Source: Planosporangium thailandense (GTDB lineage Bacteria; Actinomycetota; Actinomycetes; Mycobacteriales; Micromonosporaceae). Taken from it: a stretch of DNA of 64,000 nucleotides. The translations under genes and the position numbers were made by a program. Positions 26,701 to 39,454 of the stretch are shown here, in pieces (within the stretch, counting starts at the first letter, position 1; every line of letters begins with the position of its first letter). Below the pieces are notes generated by a model that saw only the letters and a list, made by a program, of their open reading frames with translations, was not told the DNA's origin and did no database searches. The stretch covers positions 1 to 64,000 of the forward strand of contig NZ_JAATVY010000001.1 in NCBI RefSeq assembly GCF_011947195.1. The letters are read 5' to 3'.

Positions 26701-26736
26701 ATGTCGACCACGCCTCGCCGAGTACTTATCACCTAG
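26701..26736 (+). CDS. ilvBNC leader peptide
   Basis: An 11-codon ORF, MSTTPRRVLIT, with consecutive Val-Leu-Ile codons gta-ctt-atc. In DNA where codons nearly always end in G or C, gta and ctt are rare and would make a ribosome sensitive to Val- and Leu-tRNA charging. It starts at the predicted transcription start (leaderless) and its stop codon lies in the first hairpin of the attenuator. Short leaders of this kind precede ilvB in other actinobacteria. Confidence 0.75.
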   Translation: MSTTPRRVLIT

Positions 26737-26794
26737 CGCGCTGAGCTGACTGTCGGCGCGCTAGCCCCCGTGCACCTCGCACGCGGGCTTTTTT
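26733..26794 (+). terminator. ilvBNC transcription attenuator
   Basis: Hairpin 1 pairs CTAGCGCG (26733-26740) with CGCGCTAG (26757-26764) and covers the leader stop codon. The terminator pairs 26764-26773 with 26779-26788 (one mismatch) and is followed by six T (26789-26794). The right arm of hairpin 1 touches the base of the terminator stem, so the two compete at 26763-26764. A ribosome stalled at the Val-Leu-Ile codons or released at the stop would shift this balance (inference from the family mechanism). Confidence 0.7.
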
Positions 26795-26892
26795 CATGCC
26801 CGGCGTCCATGCCCCCCGCTCCCGCCGGCCCCCGGGGCCGATGTGATCGAAGCCACCCGCGAGCCCGTTACCGTTCAACCGAAGGCGATCCG

Positions 26893-32995: not shown

Positions 32996-33439
32996 CCCCG
33001 TTAGCCCAGCGCGTCGGCCGCCGGGAACCGTCCGGGCGCCCCGTGGCCGGGAACCGTAGCGTCACCCGTCGGCCGCCGGGAACCGTCCGGGCGCGCCGCG
33101 CGTCCAACCGGCACCTGTCGCTCTGTGCTGGGAGGTCCCCGTGCCGACGGCCTCTTTCACCGCCCTGCCACTGGCCACGCTGACGCTGACAGCCCGGTTG
33201 GCGCCGCCGCCGGCCGGCGCGCCGTCCGAGAGGGTCGATCCGCGGCCGGGAGGCCAGGACAGCGGACCGGACGAGCCTGGATCGGGAGAGGCCGGCTGAG
33301 TTCTGGATCGGGAGAGGCCGGCTGAGTTCTGCTGCCTCGTCGGCTACGGTGGTAATCAGGACCGCAATGACCAGGCCAAACCTGTGACTTCACGCACTAC
33401 TGGTCCCGGAATGCGGAAAGTGCTTCCAGGATGTCGGAC
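32996..33439. other. Gene-free stretch with two sets of direct repeats
   Basis: No supported gene here. A 28-bp sequence (CGTCGGCCGCCGGGAACCGT and 8 more bases) occurs at 33012-33039 and again at 33067-33094. A 26-bp unit is tandemly duplicated at 33277-33302 and 33303-33328. An open frame of 66 codons at 33125-33325 runs through the second repeat and is Arg/Gly-rich; I do not count it as a gene. Confidence 0.5.
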
Positions 33440-33460
33440 GTGCGTGGCACTGTACTATGC

Positions 33461-33499
33461 GTGACCGCAGTCCGCACCGTACTGATTATTGGCCCCTAG
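33461..33499 (+). CDS. cimA leader peptide
   Basis: A 12-codon ORF, MTAVRTVLIIGP, starting at GTG and containing gta-ctg-att-att (Val-Leu-Ile-Ile). A longer version in the same frame from GTG 33440 would add MRGTVLC, with two more branched-chain codons, and has CAGGA 8 nt upstream. A TACTAT box (33453-33458) lies just before the short form. The stop codon is at the foot of an attenuator hairpin, the same arrangement as the ilvB leader. att and gta are rare in this DNA. Confidence 0.6.
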   Translation: MTAVRTVLIIGP

Positions 33500-33556
33500 C
33501 GCGCCAGCACTCGACGCTGGGCGCGCAGACCTCTCGCATTCGCGGGGGGTCTTTTT
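33499..33556 (+). terminator. cimA transcription attenuator
   Basis: Hairpin 1 pairs GCGCGCCAGC (33499-33508) with 33516-33526, with one bulged G. The terminator pairs AGACCTCTCGC (33527-33537) with 33542-33552 over 11 bp including two G-U pairs, followed by five T (33552-33556). It lies 25 nt before the cimA start and directly after a leader ORF with Val-Leu-Ile-Ile codons. Confidence 0.65.
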
Positions 33557-33580
33557 CGTTGTGGAGAGGCTGGAAGATCA

Positions 33581-35182
33581 ATGCAGGTTTACGACACCAC
33601 GCTGCGCGACGGGGCCCAGCGCGAAGGCATCACCTACTCGGTGGTCGACAAGCTCGCGGTGGCGCGGCTGCTCGACGACTTCGGCGTCAGCTTCATCGAG
33701 GGTGGCTGGCCGGGGGCGCTTCCGAAGGACACGGAGTTCTTCCGGCGGGCGCGCACCGAGCTCAACCTCAAGCACGCGCTCTTCGTCGCGTTCGGCGCCA
33801 CCCGCAAGGCCGACACCGCCGTCGACGTCGATCCGCAGGTACGGGCGCTGCTCGACGCCGAGACCCCGGTCGTGACGCTGGTCGCGAAGTCGGACGTGCG
33901 GCACGTCGAGCGGGCCCTGCGCACGACGCTGGACGAGAACCTGGCGATGGTCCGGGACACGGTCGCCTTCTTCGTCGCCGAGGGCCGACGAGTGTTTCTC
34001 GACTGCGAGCACTTCTTCGACGGGTACGCGGTGGACCCGAAGTACGCCACGGCGGTGGCCGCGGCCGCCCTGGAGGCCGGCGCCGAGGCGGCGGTCCTGT
34101 GCGACACCAACGGCGGCATGCTCCCGTCACGCGTGACCCGGGTGGTGGGTGAGGTCCGCGACCGGCTCGCCGACCAGCTCGGCGTCAGCGCCGACGAGGC
34201 GGTGGCCCGGCTCGGCATCCACTGCCAGAACGACACCGGGTGCGCCGTGGCCAACACGGTCGCCGCCGTCGAGGCGGGCGTACCGCACTTCCAGTGCACC
34301 GCCAACGGGTACGGCGAGCGCGCCGGGAACGCCGACCTCTTCGCCGTCGTCGGCAACCTCCAGCTCAAGCTCGGGCTGCCCGTCCTACCGGACGGCTGCC
34401 TGGACCAGATGGTGCGCGTCTCGCACGCCATCGCCGAGATCGCCAACATCGCCCCCGACACCCACCAGGCCTACGTCGGGTCGTCGTCCTTCGCCCACAA
34501 GGCGGGGCTGCACGCGAGCGCGATCAAGGTCGACCCCCTGCTGTACAACCACGTGGAGCCGGAGGTCGTCGGCAACGACATGCGCATCCTGGTCACCGAG
34601 ATGGCCGGGCGCGCCAGTGTCGAGCTGAAAGCCCGAGAGCTGGGCATCGATCTCGGTGCCCACCCCGAGGCGGTCTCCCGGGTGACCGCCCGGATCAAGG
34701 AGCTGGAGGCGGCCGGCTGGTCGTTCGAGGCCGCCGACGCCTCGTTCGAGCTGCTGGTACGCGAGGAGCTCGACGGCGGGCTGGCCCGCCCGTTCGCCCT
34801 GGAGAGCTACCGGGTCCAGGTCGAGCACCGCGAGGACGGCGCGGTGGTCAGCGAGGCCACGGTCAAGGTGCGGGTACGCGGGGAGCGGGTGATCGCGACG
34901 GCCGAGGGCAACGGCCCGGTCAACGCCCTCGATGAGGCGCTGCGGGTCGCGCTGGCGAAGCACTACCCGGGGCTCGCCACGTTCGAGCTGGCCGACTTCA
35001 AGGTGCGCATCCTCGAAGGCAGCCACGGCACCGGCGCGGTGACCCGGGTACTGCTGGAGACGGCCGGCAAGAACGGCGACTGGACCACGGTCGGTGTGCA
35101 CCACAACGTCGTCGAGGCGAGCTGGCACGCGCTCGTCGACGCGCTCAGCTACGGACTGGCCGGGCAGCAGCTGCCCGCCTGA
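33581..35182 (+). CDS. cimA: (R)-Citramalate synthase
   Basis: 533 aa, HMGL/isopropylmalate-synthase family. The N-terminal TIM barrel has YDTTLRDGAQREGI with the metal-binding Asp and FIEGGWPGALPKD, the pattern of the CimA branch; HCQNDTGCAVANT holds metal His residues, and FAHKAGLHASA the conserved C-terminal barrel motif. Residues about 400-530 are the LeuA-type dimer/allosteric domain. It condenses pyruvate with acetyl-CoA, opening a threonine-independent route to 2-oxobutyrate and Ile. Ile feedback is typical. ATG 33581 follows GGAAG. The attenuator upstream with Ile codons supports an Ile role over LeuA or homocitrate synthase. Confidence 0.88.
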   Translation: MQVYDTTLRDGAQREGITYSVVDKLAVARLLDDFGVSFIEGGWPGALPKDTEFFRRARTELNLKHALFVAFGATRKADTAVDVDPQVRALLDAETPVVTLVAKSDVRHVERALRTTLDENLAMVRDTVAFFVAEGRRVFLDCEHFFDGYAVDPKYATAVAAAALEAGAEAAVLCDTNGGMLPSRVTRVVGEVRDRLADQLGVSADEAVARLGIHCQNDTGCAVANTVAAVEAGVPHFQCTANGYGERAGNADLFAVVGNLQLKLGLPVLPDGCLDQMVRVSHAIAEIANIAPDTHQAYVGSSSFAHKAGLHASAIKVDPLLYNHVEPEVVGNDMRILVTEMAGRASVELKARELGIDLGAHPEAVSRVTARIKELEAAGWSFEAADASFELLVREELDGGLARPFALESYRVQVEHREDGAVVSEATVKVRVRGERVIATAEGNGPVNALDEALRVALAKHYPGLATFELADFKVRILEGSHGTGAVTRVLLETAGKNGDWTTVGVHHNVVEASWHALVDALSYGLAGQQLPA

Positions 35183-36730: not shown

Positions 36731-39454
36731 TCAGCGCGCCCCCTGCTCGTACGCGCTGACCGCGAGCTCGACGCGCGAGCTGAGCCCCAGCTTGGCGAGG
36801 ATGTGCGAGACGTGGTTGCGGACCGTTCGCGGTGACAGGTACAGCTCCGCGGCGATGTCCGGGTTGGACCGGCCCGCCACCACGAGTTCGACGATCCGGC
36901 GCTCGGTCCGGGTCAGCGCCTCCCAGCCCGTCGTCGGTCGCTGCCGGCCGCTGCGGTGCCGCACGCCGGCCTCCCGCAGCCGCGCCTGCGCGCGTTCGAG
37001 ATCCCAGGCCGCCCCGATCCGGTCGTAGCAGCCGAGCGCCGCGTCCAGGGCCGCCCGGGCGCGCGCCCGGGCTCCGGTGGTGGCGAGGACGTCGGCGGCC
37101 TCCTCGTACGCGTAGCCCTCGTACAGCGGCCGGCGGGCCTCGTTGAAGGTCTGCGCCGCGGTGAGCAGCACCGCCGCGTCCGCCTCGACGATGCCCCGGC
37201 AGAGCAGGGCGGCGGCGCGCACCTGCGGACCGCCGTGGTGCACGGCGACCCGGTACAGGGGCTCCGCGACCCCGCGCACCTGCGAGCGCCGCCCGCCGCA
37301 GCCGGCCACCCGGGCGAGCTCGGCCGCCAGGCAGGCCAGGGCCGGGCCCCGGCCCCACGCGTCCGACAGCGTCCGCAACGCCCGGTCGCGGTCGCCGTCG
37401 CGTTCGGCCGACAGCGCCCGCGCCGACGCGCGCAGCCATCCCCAGTACGGGCTCGGGTCGTCGTGCTCGCGTACGTCCGGATCCGGGCCGTCGCCGCGGT
37501 GCAGCCCGATCAGCGTGGCCTGGCTGCGCAGCGCCGGTGCCACACCGAGGTGGTCGGTCGCCTCGAGCCCGGCCCGGATCTCGGTGAGCGCGTCGTCCCA
37601 CCGGCCCTCCAGGTACCGCACCCGTGCGCTGCCGAGGCGGTGCCAGGCGAGGAACGCCCGGTCGCCCCGGGTACGCCCTTGCCCGAACGCGGCGTCGGCC
37701 TCATCGAACCGGCCGAGTTCGAGCAGGCAGAAGCCGCGTACGAGATGCGGCGCGAACGGATGGTCCGGCTGGACCTGGTCGCCGCCCAGCGCCGCGAGCG
37801 CCCGGTCGGCGAGGTCGAGCCCGTCGGCCGGGCGCTGCCGTACCAGCCGGACACCGGCCAGCGCCGTCAGCGCGCATGCGTTGACGTAGTCGTCGGACCC
37901 GGCGACGGCCGGCGCGGCGGCGGCCTCGGCGGCCTTGGCGCGCCCCGTCAACAGCAGGCACTGCGCGGCGAGCGCGTGGAAGCGGGCCGCGTCCTCGTCG
38001 CTCAGCCCCTCGTCGGCCAGCACCTTCTCGGCCACGGCGAGTGCCGCGTCCAGCTCACCGCTCTGCAGGCGCGACTGCGCCAGCAGCCAACGCAGCGCCA
38101 CCCCCGGCTTCGGCTCCGCCGACAACGCCGCCTGGACGGCCTCCGTCGCGTCCGCCGGGCGCCCCGCCCACAGCAGCGCCCGCGCGTACTGCAGCCGCAG
38201 GGTCTCCGGGACCTCGCCGCGCCGTTGCCGTAACGTCCGCTCGAGCAGCGGCGTGGCCAGGTCCGGGGCGCGTACGACCAGCGCCTCCGCGGCCCGTGCC
38301 AGCCAGTCGACCAGGTCCGGCGCCAACCCCGTGGCGGCCGTGAGATGCCGTGCGACCCGCTCGACCCGGGCGCCGGCCGTCGCGAGTGCCCGCCCGGCGC
38401 GCAGCCGCAGCGCGTCGGCCGCGCCGCCGGACAGGTTGTCGGCGAGCACCTGGCGGACCAGCTCGTGCCGGAACACGAGCTGGTCGCCGGCTTCGACCAG
38501 CAGCCCCGCCGTCACCGCCTCGCTGGCCGGTTCCCAGAGCGAGATCACGGGGGTGTCGAGGACGGCCGCGAGCTCGGTCAGGTCGAAGCCGGCCCCCAGG
38601 ACGGCGGCGGCCCGCAGCAGCTCGACAGTCGGGTCGCTGAGCCGGTCGAGGCGGCGCTGGATCAGGCCGATCAGCGTGCCCGGTACCGCCGCCGCCCCGC
38701 CTCGACGCGGCGTCGCGTAGCCGCCGGCGACCCGGATGCCGCCGGTGCGCGCCAGCGCGCCGAGCAGGTGGATCGCGTACAGGGGGTTGCCCCCGGCCCG
38801 GGCGAGCAGCTCGCGCAGCTCCGGGCCCGCAGGCGCGCCGAGCAGCGACTGCGCCAGCGCGGCGATCTCGTCCTCGGGCAGCGGCGCGAGCGTCATCGGG
38901 ACCGCGCCGCGCCCGTGCAGCGCTCGCAGCAGCACGTCCAGCCGGGCGTCGGATGGCGTCGGCTGGTATGCCGCGACGAGCAGGAGCGGGAGCTGGGCGA
39001 CGCTGCGGTGCAGGCGGCCGAGAAGGAGCAGGCTCGCCGGATCCACCCACTGGAGGTCGTCGACGACCGCCACCACCGGTCCCGCCGCGCACCACGCCTC
39101 GATCCGGTTGACCACCAGTTCGGTGACCGCCAGGTCGCGGTCGGCCAGTTCGGTGACCACCAGGTCGCCGTCGGCGCCGGGCTGGCGCGTGACGACGGGG
39201 TCGATGGGCGGGTCCGCCGCGAGCCACGACCGGACCGCCGCGAACGACCCCTGCTGGCCGGCCACGCCGTCGGCGCGCAGCACCCTGGCGCCCAGCCGGC
39301 GCCCTTCGGCCGCGGCAGCCGCCAGCAGGGTGCTCTTGCCGATCCCCGGCTCGCCCTCGACCAGAACCGTCGCGCCGTATCCGGAGGCCGCCCGGTGGAC
39401 CAGCTCACGTACGCGCCCGAGCTCGTCGCCCCGGCCGAACACGGCTGCCCGCAT
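36731..39454 (-). CDS. Large ATPase LuxR-family regulator (LAL), copy 1
   Basis: 907 aa. N-terminal AAA-type ATPase with Walker A VEGEPGIGKSTLLAAA and Walker B VVAVVDDLQWVDPAS, a long TPR-like helical middle (about 380-800), and a C-terminal LuxR helix-turn-helix (SNPDIAAELYLSPRTVRNHV). LAL regulators activate secondary-metabolite or catabolic operons after ligand and ATP binding. No biosynthetic cluster is adjacent, so the target is unknown. ATG 39454 lies 7 nt after the stop of its upstream paralogue, so the two are co-transcribed. Confidence 0.9.
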   Translation of the reverse strand: MRAAVFGRGDELGRVRELVHRAASGYGATVLVEGEPGIGKSTLLAAAAAEGRRLGARVLRADGVAGQQGSFAAVRSWLAADPPIDPVVTRQPGADGDLVVTELADRDLAVTELVVNRIEAWCAAGPVVAVVDDLQWVDPASLLLLGRLHRSVAQLPLLLVAAYQPTPSDARLDVLLRALHGRGAVPMTLAPLPEDEIAALAQSLLGAPAGPELRELLARAGGNPLYAIHLLGALARTGGIRVAGGYATPRRGGAAAVPGTLIGLIQRRLDRLSDPTVELLRAAAVLGAGFDLTELAAVLDTPVISLWEPASEAVTAGLLVEAGDQLVFRHELVRQVLADNLSGGAADALRLRAGRALATAGARVERVARHLTAATGLAPDLVDWLARAAEALVVRAPDLATPLLERTLRQRRGEVPETLRLQYARALLWAGRPADATEAVQAALSAEPKPGVALRWLLAQSRLQSGELDAALAVAEKVLADEGLSDEDAARFHALAAQCLLLTGRAKAAEAAAAPAVAGSDDYVNACALTALAGVRLVRQRPADGLDLADRALAALGGDQVQPDHPFAPHLVRGFCLLELGRFDEADAAFGQGRTRGDRAFLAWHRLGSARVRYLEGRWDDALTEIRAGLEATDHLGVAPALRSQATLIGLHRGDGPDPDVREHDDPSPYWGWLRASARALSAERDGDRDRALRTLSDAWGRGPALACLAAELARVAGCGGRRSQVRGVAEPLYRVAVHHGGPQVRAAALLCRGIVEADAAVLLTAAQTFNEARRPLYEGYAYEEAADVLATTGARARARAALDAALGCYDRIGAAWDLERAQARLREAGVRHRSGRQRPTTGWEALTRTERRIVELVVAGRSNPDIAAELYLSPRTVRNHVSHILAKLGLSSRVELAVSAYEQGAR

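Follow-up and report, generated by a model that had tools for sequence, protein, structure and literature searches.

The region upstream of cimA in Planosporangium thailandense raises the question of whether this gene is controlled by a translated leader and, if so, which amino acid is sensed. In the window, by which we mean the whole stretch of 64,000 nucleotides analysed, cimA occupies positions 33581..35182 on the plus strand, and its product is identified as citramalate synthase by a score of 611.6 bits against TIGR00977 (cut-off 450). Among the window ORFs it is the last gene of an ilvB-ilvN-ilvC-leuB-ilvE-cimA cluster, in which the identities of ilvB and ilvE are backed by NCBIfam; the names ilvN, ilvC and leuB are assumed from gene position. 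Threonine ammonia-lyase-like genes, scoring below that family's cut-off, are present elsewhere in the genome and cimA thus need not be its only source of 2-oxobutyrate. The original prediction, a leader peptide and attenuator in front of cimA, is supported by conservation, reading frame, covariation and gene association. The element is very probably an isoleucine-responsive transcription attenuator, and most likely cimA is switched on when isoleucine is short.

The leader region of cimA

The element spans positions 33461-33556, and its terminator sits 25 nt before cimA. The leader ORF of 12 codons, located at 33461..33499 on the plus strand (GTG ACC GCA GTC CGC ACC GTA CTG ATT ATT GGC CCC TAG), is predicted from frame and conservation to encode the peptide VTAVRTVLIIGP. 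Codons GTA (33479), CTG (33482), ATT (33485) and ATT (33488) are all in frame with the stop codon TAG (33497-33499). Codon conservation points at ATT-ATT (Ile-Ile, 33485..33490, plus strand) as the control codons. Among 94 Ile codons counted across five ORFs of the window, 4 are ATT. The arrangement originally described, i.e. a leader ORF with gta-ctg-att-att, a hairpin at its stop and a U-tailed terminator before cimA, can be read directly in the sequence and is conserved.

Alignment of upstream regions suggests a -10-like hexamer CACTGT at 33448..33453 (plus strand) with a predicted transcription start at 33461. In relatives the box reads CANNNT (CAGAGT, CAAAGT, CATACT), and pattern matching placed a GGCA..[T/A] box at a distance of 5-9 nt ahead of [G/A]TGA in 87 of 98 upstreams from the family. 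A scan for sigma-70 consensus sequences around the cimA leader did not find a promoter. Because the conserved start codon GTG 33461 follows seven bases after the end of the -10-like box, the transcript is probably leaderless, starting at its own start codon. Either GTG 33440 or GTG 33461 had been considered as the start; the latter is favoured by conservation and the former was rejected, because the conserved -10-like box only comes after it. Further upstream of the cimA promoter, at 33277-33328, a perfect tandem direct repeat of 26 nt is present in two copies.

Two hairpins follow the ORF. The first, P1 (33499..33526, plus strand; arms 33499-33508 and 33516-33526), is proposed as an antiterminator on the basis of folding and covariation, and it begins with the last base of the leader stop codon TAG, G 33499. 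The second, T (33527..33556, plus strand), is an intrinsic terminator according to folding and a terminator scan, with an 11-bp stem (33527-33537 and 33542-33552) and a U-tract reaching to 33556. P1 and T are separated by a linker of 0 nt. T is the sole terminator-like site in 33300-33600 (one found; shuffles gave a mean of 0.2 with a standard deviation of 0.4).

Conservation and distribution of the element

We looked for the cimA protein in 101 genomes of the Micromonosporaceae, a family we use in the GTDB sense, with Stackebrandtia included by inference, and some match was found in 100 of them. The nearest named relative is Planosporangium flavigriseum (92% protein identity). Upstream DNA was collected for the best cimA match in 98 genomes and for three paralogues; left out were G059 (no match), G030 (distant match only) and G014, in which the gene is partial and its upstream (L106) matches covariance model R2 with 46.2 bits. 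The structure of R2 was specified by hand; this model replaced R1, which was built from relatives and contains 15 pairs, with fewer in P1. Two anchors that are blind to reading frame, the GGCA..[T/A] box with [G/A]TGA after it and an AT[TCG]AT[TC] motif, are both present in 87 of the 98 upstreams, all of which also contain the terminator pattern, and the 11 upstreams lacking one anchor all match R2 with 60.5-90.5 bits. The element therefore precedes the best cimA match in 98/98 genomes of the family; it is absent upstream of the cimA paralogues (0/3 match R2).

Measured without regard to frame, the Ile codons of 87/87 anchored members lie 12, 15, 18, 21 or 24 nt from the start codon. On a quick tree of cimA proteins (66 rows, 55 of them labelled) the leader underwent 11 or more changes in length, each of them by a multiple of 3; provided that these changes are independent, the chance of such frame-keeping without a frame would be about (1/3)^11. 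Of the 87 leaders, 67 contain ATT-ATT, 83 Ile-Ile and four Met-Ile, a count biased by the anchor, which required ATN-ATY, and the 11 unanchored members were therefore checked apart. Nine of them feature Ile-Ile, L066 has Ile-Thr and L100 Met-Ile-Met, so that Ile-Ile occurs in 92/98 members overall and the exceptions number six, the four Met-Ile leaders included. Leu precedes the Ile codons in 82/87 members. The leader stop is TAG in 82/87 and TGA in 5/87 and follows four codons past the first Ile codon in 68/87; in the other members the interval is three to twelve codons.

The codon-sized steps in which the leader varies argue against the idea that the element is a protein- or ligand-binding RNA, i.e. 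a riboswitch or T-box, accompanied by an ORF arisen by chance. The high conservation of P1 and of the boundary sequence would agree with such an RNA, yet the cimA leader is not matched by any Rfam covariance model, T-box included, even at E<=1, and we regard this explanation as extremely unlikely.

The same leader, expected before cimA in related genomes, was also found in 77 of 80 named cimA loci. Carriers among these belong to the Micromonosporaceae, Glycomyces, Stackebrandtia, Geodermatophilaceae and a Nakamurella metagenome-assembled genome (MAG), and further carriers are Thermobifida fusca, Yinghuangia, Streptomyces and some other MAGs. Leaders from Geodermatophilaceae often contain Ile-Ile-Ile in ATC codons, and locus L140 has Ile-Leu-Ile. 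For six loci (L109, L110, L144, L146, L152 and L157) the automatically assigned Ile position is false; the element was recognized in their upstream sequences, with L144 and L146 confirmed by R2. The three loci without a counted element are L130, which ends 33 nt before the gene, and L151 and L155, where a loose pattern fires but R2 finds nothing.

When the 7.0-Mb genome was searched, R1 yielded one match at E<=1 and R2 one strong and four weak matches (E 0.05 to 6). The whole-genome search with R2 missed a leader in front of ilvB in the window, which scores 41.7 bits when the window alone is searched, and the genome tallies are thus lower bounds. With R2 at E<=1e-6, 142 of 246 genomes of the class were matched, that is 139 of the 195 with cimA and 3 of the 51 without. 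The match lies 20-232 nt upstream of cimA on the same strand in 101 of 109 checkable genomes, and cimA resides downstream in all 20 genomes fetched out of 30 further matched ones (20/20). An interpretation of the remaining eight of the 109 matches as false positives was rejected, since an ilvA-like gene follows seven of them and ilvB the eighth. No R2 match was obtained for 56 of the 195 class genomes with cimA, which fall into family codes f92 (21 genomes of 1.2-2.2 Mb), f85 (13), f81 (9) and others (13); three cimA upstreams from unmatched genomes (L260-L262) likewise gave no R2 match. A search of the phylum (R2, E<=0.01) matched 59 of 296 genomes. Among 37 elements from deep branches, 28 have ilvB, leuA or a related gene downstream and to nine no gene was assigned; for one of the 28, L216, the 'ilvB' label is weak and the longest ORF resembles ilvD by eye only. 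Nine of the 89 elements examined for their downstream gene were assigned none, and seven of these, which score 25-31 bits and in which no branched-chain leader could be framed, are probably false matches.

Control codons and the genes downstream

The leaders in front of different genes end differently. cimA leaders end in ..IIx, ilvA-like leaders in [L/F]M[V/A/G]IT with one Ile (7/7) and ilvB leaders in a mixture of Val, Leu and Ile (LVLI in 12/32), while the three leuA leaders end in NLLLT, NLLLT and GLLLR and both leuS leaders (L256, L280) in GLLLT. The control codons thus follow the pathway, which is the best evidence that the codons act as sensors and that the sensor of the cimA leader is isoleucine. 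The ilvA-like cases (L246-L252), in which the gene downstream is threonine ammonia-lyase-like, stem from seven genomes that all carry family code f85; the one f85 cimA upstream examined (L262) contains no element. As to gene identities, the L244 gene is leuA, above the family-model cut-off, and the lyase of L250 and the truncated leuS of L256 are named after their best family-model match, below curated cut-offs.

The window itself provides a sister element upstream of ilvB. Its leader ORF (26701..26736, plus strand), recognized by R2 and in the sequence, would encode MSTTPRRVLIT from a probably leaderless ATG, and it is followed by P1 and an abutting terminator at 26733..26795 on the plus strand (R2 41.7 bits; ends approximate). 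With the cimA leader it shares the -10-like spacing and CTAGCGCGC at the stop/P1 position.

The original prediction had coupled cimA to the charging of Ile-, Val- and Leu-tRNA alike, and joint sensing of the three amino acids, as is thought to occur in ilvB leaders, would be in line with Val-Leu-Ile-Ile in the window leader and with Leu ahead of the Ile codons in the great majority of family members as well as in certain leaders from other families (L220, L221). However, Geodermatophilaceae leaders mostly have Thr or Ser ahead of Ile-Ile, with Leu and Phe as further variants, and Streptomyces leaders have Met or Thr at this place, such that Val and Leu are mostly absent from both groups and Ile-Ile stays. 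In addition, the Val/Leu/Ile mixture is kept by ilvB leaders, and 2-oxobutyrate derived from citramalate leads to isoleucine only. In the wider set, which holds 34 cimA elements with the window included, Ile-Ile is found in 29, the exceptions being L223, L285, L291 and L297 with a single or separated Ile and L287 without Ile at the expected place. Joint sensing is therefore unlikely, and comparison of the leaders indicates that the cimA leader likely senses isoleucine rather than Ile, Val and Leu alike; inside the family, where Leu is conserved in 82/87 leaders, and in those other families in which it is present, a contribution of this amino acid is conceivable. The anticipated conservation of Val-Leu-Ile-Ile accordingly holds for Ile-Ile and, within the family, for Leu, but for the most part it does not extend to Val and Leu in Geodermatophilaceae and Streptomyces.

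Two genomes with family code f86 contain a second copy of the element (L254, 1290-1723; L255, 1732-1821) with Ile-rich codons (RIII, LVIIM). In L254, the second copy is followed by a gene for a short protein that matches an ACT domain weakly (PF13291, 18.3 bits, below cut-off).

The junction of P1 and T and the proposed mode of antitermination

For a covariation test on an alignment of 51 sequences, the 10 bp of P1 and the 11 bp of T were fixed from the window structure. Paired cells amounted to 92.7% for P1 and T together, and changes on both sides were found in 12 of the 21 pairs, or in 7/10 when P1 is considered alone. The percentage paired and the covariation score were matched by 0/500 shuffles, and pairing falls to 30-61% in slid versions of the structure; the number of further pair types showed no excess over shuffles (401/500).

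Folding does not set the two hairpins against each other. Mean energies are -21.4 kcal/mol for P1 and -20.4 kcal/mol for T, and joint folding costs nothing (mean difference -0.4 kcal/mol). The minimum-energy fold of the window contains both, and its -38.1 kcal/mol roughly equals the energies of P1 and T added together. Folding did not reveal an antiterminator of the classical 2:3 type, whose overlapping pairs would exclude T, and this type was rejected because P1 and T coexist; read-through thus does not follow from thermodynamics. An anti-antiterminator hairpin was not seen in the window fold either. When a ribosome is mimicked in the window fold by masking up to the stop codon, P1 is lost and T stays, and when the mask reaches to the first Ile codon, both stay, indicating that the position of the ribosome can decide P1.

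T persists in the fold whichever of the three ribosome positions is imposed. This, together with the lack of mutual exclusion, would be expected if T were a constitutive terminator that sets a low basal level of cimA and the ORF were decorative, without a regulatory role. Such a terminator would not explain why the frame survives at least 11 length changes, why Ile-Ile is retained in almost the whole family, why the control codons vary with the target gene and why P1 covaries, and we therefore consider it very unlikely.

From the ORF with its frame and codons, P1, T, their abutment and the association with cimA, all of which are seen in the DNA itself, we infer a leaderless start, ribosome stalling and an equivalence of P1 formation and read-through. 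Transcription would begin at the leader start codon and a ribosome would translate the 12-codon ORF. With charged Ile-tRNA, the ribosome would proceed to the stop codon and cover the 5' arm of P1, and T would end transcription near 33556. When Ile-tRNA is short, the ribosome would halt on ATT-ATT, its footprint ending approximately at the foot of P1; P1 would then form against T and hinder closing of the lower stem of T, so that polymerase reads into cimA. Counting against an attenuator are the coexistence of P1 and T, the family elements in which P1 captures no terminator bases, the Ile-Ile exceptions, the 56 of 195 cimA genomes without a match and the codon substitutions reported to be ineffective in the S. 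coelicolor ilvB leader.

The weakest step is the way in which P1 would hinder T, be it by abutment, by capture of the boundary AG or by both; most likely it acts by abutment with boundary competition. The linker between P1 and T measures 0 nt in 73/87 family elements and 1 nt in 13/87, with one fold differing, and P1 starts 5-8 nt past the Ile codons (8 nt in 70/86). These 87 elements were chosen without R2 and hence without selection for abutment. In the wider set the linker is 0 nt in 27/34 cimA, 26/32 ilvB, 5/7 ilvA-like, 2/3 leuA, 2/2 leuS and 4/9 untyped elements, figures that lean towards abutment because this set was found with R2, whose structure places P1 beside T. Folded alone, P1 captures at least two basal terminator bases in 62/87 family elements and none in 21 (four not scored); P1 and T would thus share 2-3 nt at their boundary in 61/87, 4 nt in one and none in 21. 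The P1 of the window captures boundary bases weakly, with a gain of about 0.4 kcal/mol.

It has also to be considered that P1 may serve for pausing or protection and that a ribosome stalled shortly behind RNA polymerase brings about antitermination. The position of the first Ile codon in the window, 42 nt upstream of T, and the fact that P1 does not exclude T would both suit this explanation. In Streptomyces, however, the stretch from the control codons to T is longer by about 40-50 nt, and P1 still ends directly at AGACC in the alignment; the distance between ribosome and terminator thus varies and the P1-T junction does not. We consider this explanation rather improbable.

The 'fast' attenuator of Corynebacterium glutamicum ilvBNC as described in the accessible text of PMC11857589 shares with the cimA element a leader ORF with branched-chain codons and adjacent antiterminator and terminator hairpins; its near-leaderless start and the few boundary bases common to its hairpins probably have counterparts before cimA, and a mutation series in C. 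glutamicum supports competition at the hairpin bases. There the shared bases are the trinucleotide GCC, in contrast to the 2-3 nt, 4 nt or none estimated for the family cimA elements. Unlike this system, the element studied here targets cimA and has Ile-Ile as control codons, and its window fold is without an anti-antiterminator hairpin. The ilvB-II motif, according to the accessible parts of PMC10272879 and PMC11109978 reported from Corynebacterium alone and in every case ahead of ilvB, has in common with the cimA element uORF lengths divisible by three with in-frame start and stop, and P1 plus a terminator; in its published antiterminator the P1 loop pairs with the 3' arm of the terminator. 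The actinobacterial ilvB, leuA and leuS leaders (PMC1262725; S. lividans, Table 4 of PMC8079986) likewise encode branched-chain leader peptides, several being leaderless and some followed by terminators, and the accessible text of these sources does not discuss abutment of P1 and T. The M. tuberculosis ilvB1 attenuator resembles the cimA element in its uORF, ribosome-footprint logic and intrinsic terminator and has LVVI codons, a 166-nt leader and ilvB1 as target; two mutually exclusive folds are proposed for it, unlike P1 and T (PMC13236596, accessible text). The term 'cimA' has 0 occurrences in the accessible text of PMC8079986, PMC13236596, PMC11109978 and PMC10272879, and that of PMC1262725 names neither cimA nor ilvA. 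Within the literature searched, which lay mostly outside subscription papers, no cimA or ilvA attenuator is described for actinobacteria, consistent with the original statement that attenuation of cimA had not been reported. The kind of attenuator is known, and cimA is a new target.

As a tentative generalization, the leaders of cimA, ilvA, ilvB, leuA and leuS might form one class of leaderless branched-chain attenuators throughout the phylum Actinomycetota, in which the abutting hairpin physically prevents closure of T at the polymerase exit without alternative pairing and which is retuned by swapping two to three control codons; one family would have the ilvA-like gene where its relatives have cimA. 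If the reading of the cimA leader is true, the threonine-independent route to isoleucine would be under direct control of Ile-tRNA across much of the Actinomycetes, and cimA control would be separate from that of the shared Val/Leu/Ile steps. Codon-specific stalling has been put in doubt by the S. coelicolor ilvB leader, for which codon substitutions are reported to be without effect (PMC1262725, accessible text). Such stalling could readily be tested with the codon swaps that nature has made among cimA, ilvA-like, ilvB, leuA and leuS leaders, and the tight P1-T junction makes antitermination without exclusive pairing a testable claim.

Elsewhere in the window, ARAGORN calls a tRNA-Gly at 38455-38528 on the minus strand. 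As the Rfam scan does not list it, this call, which lies inside the minus-strand ORF 36731-39454, is probably false.
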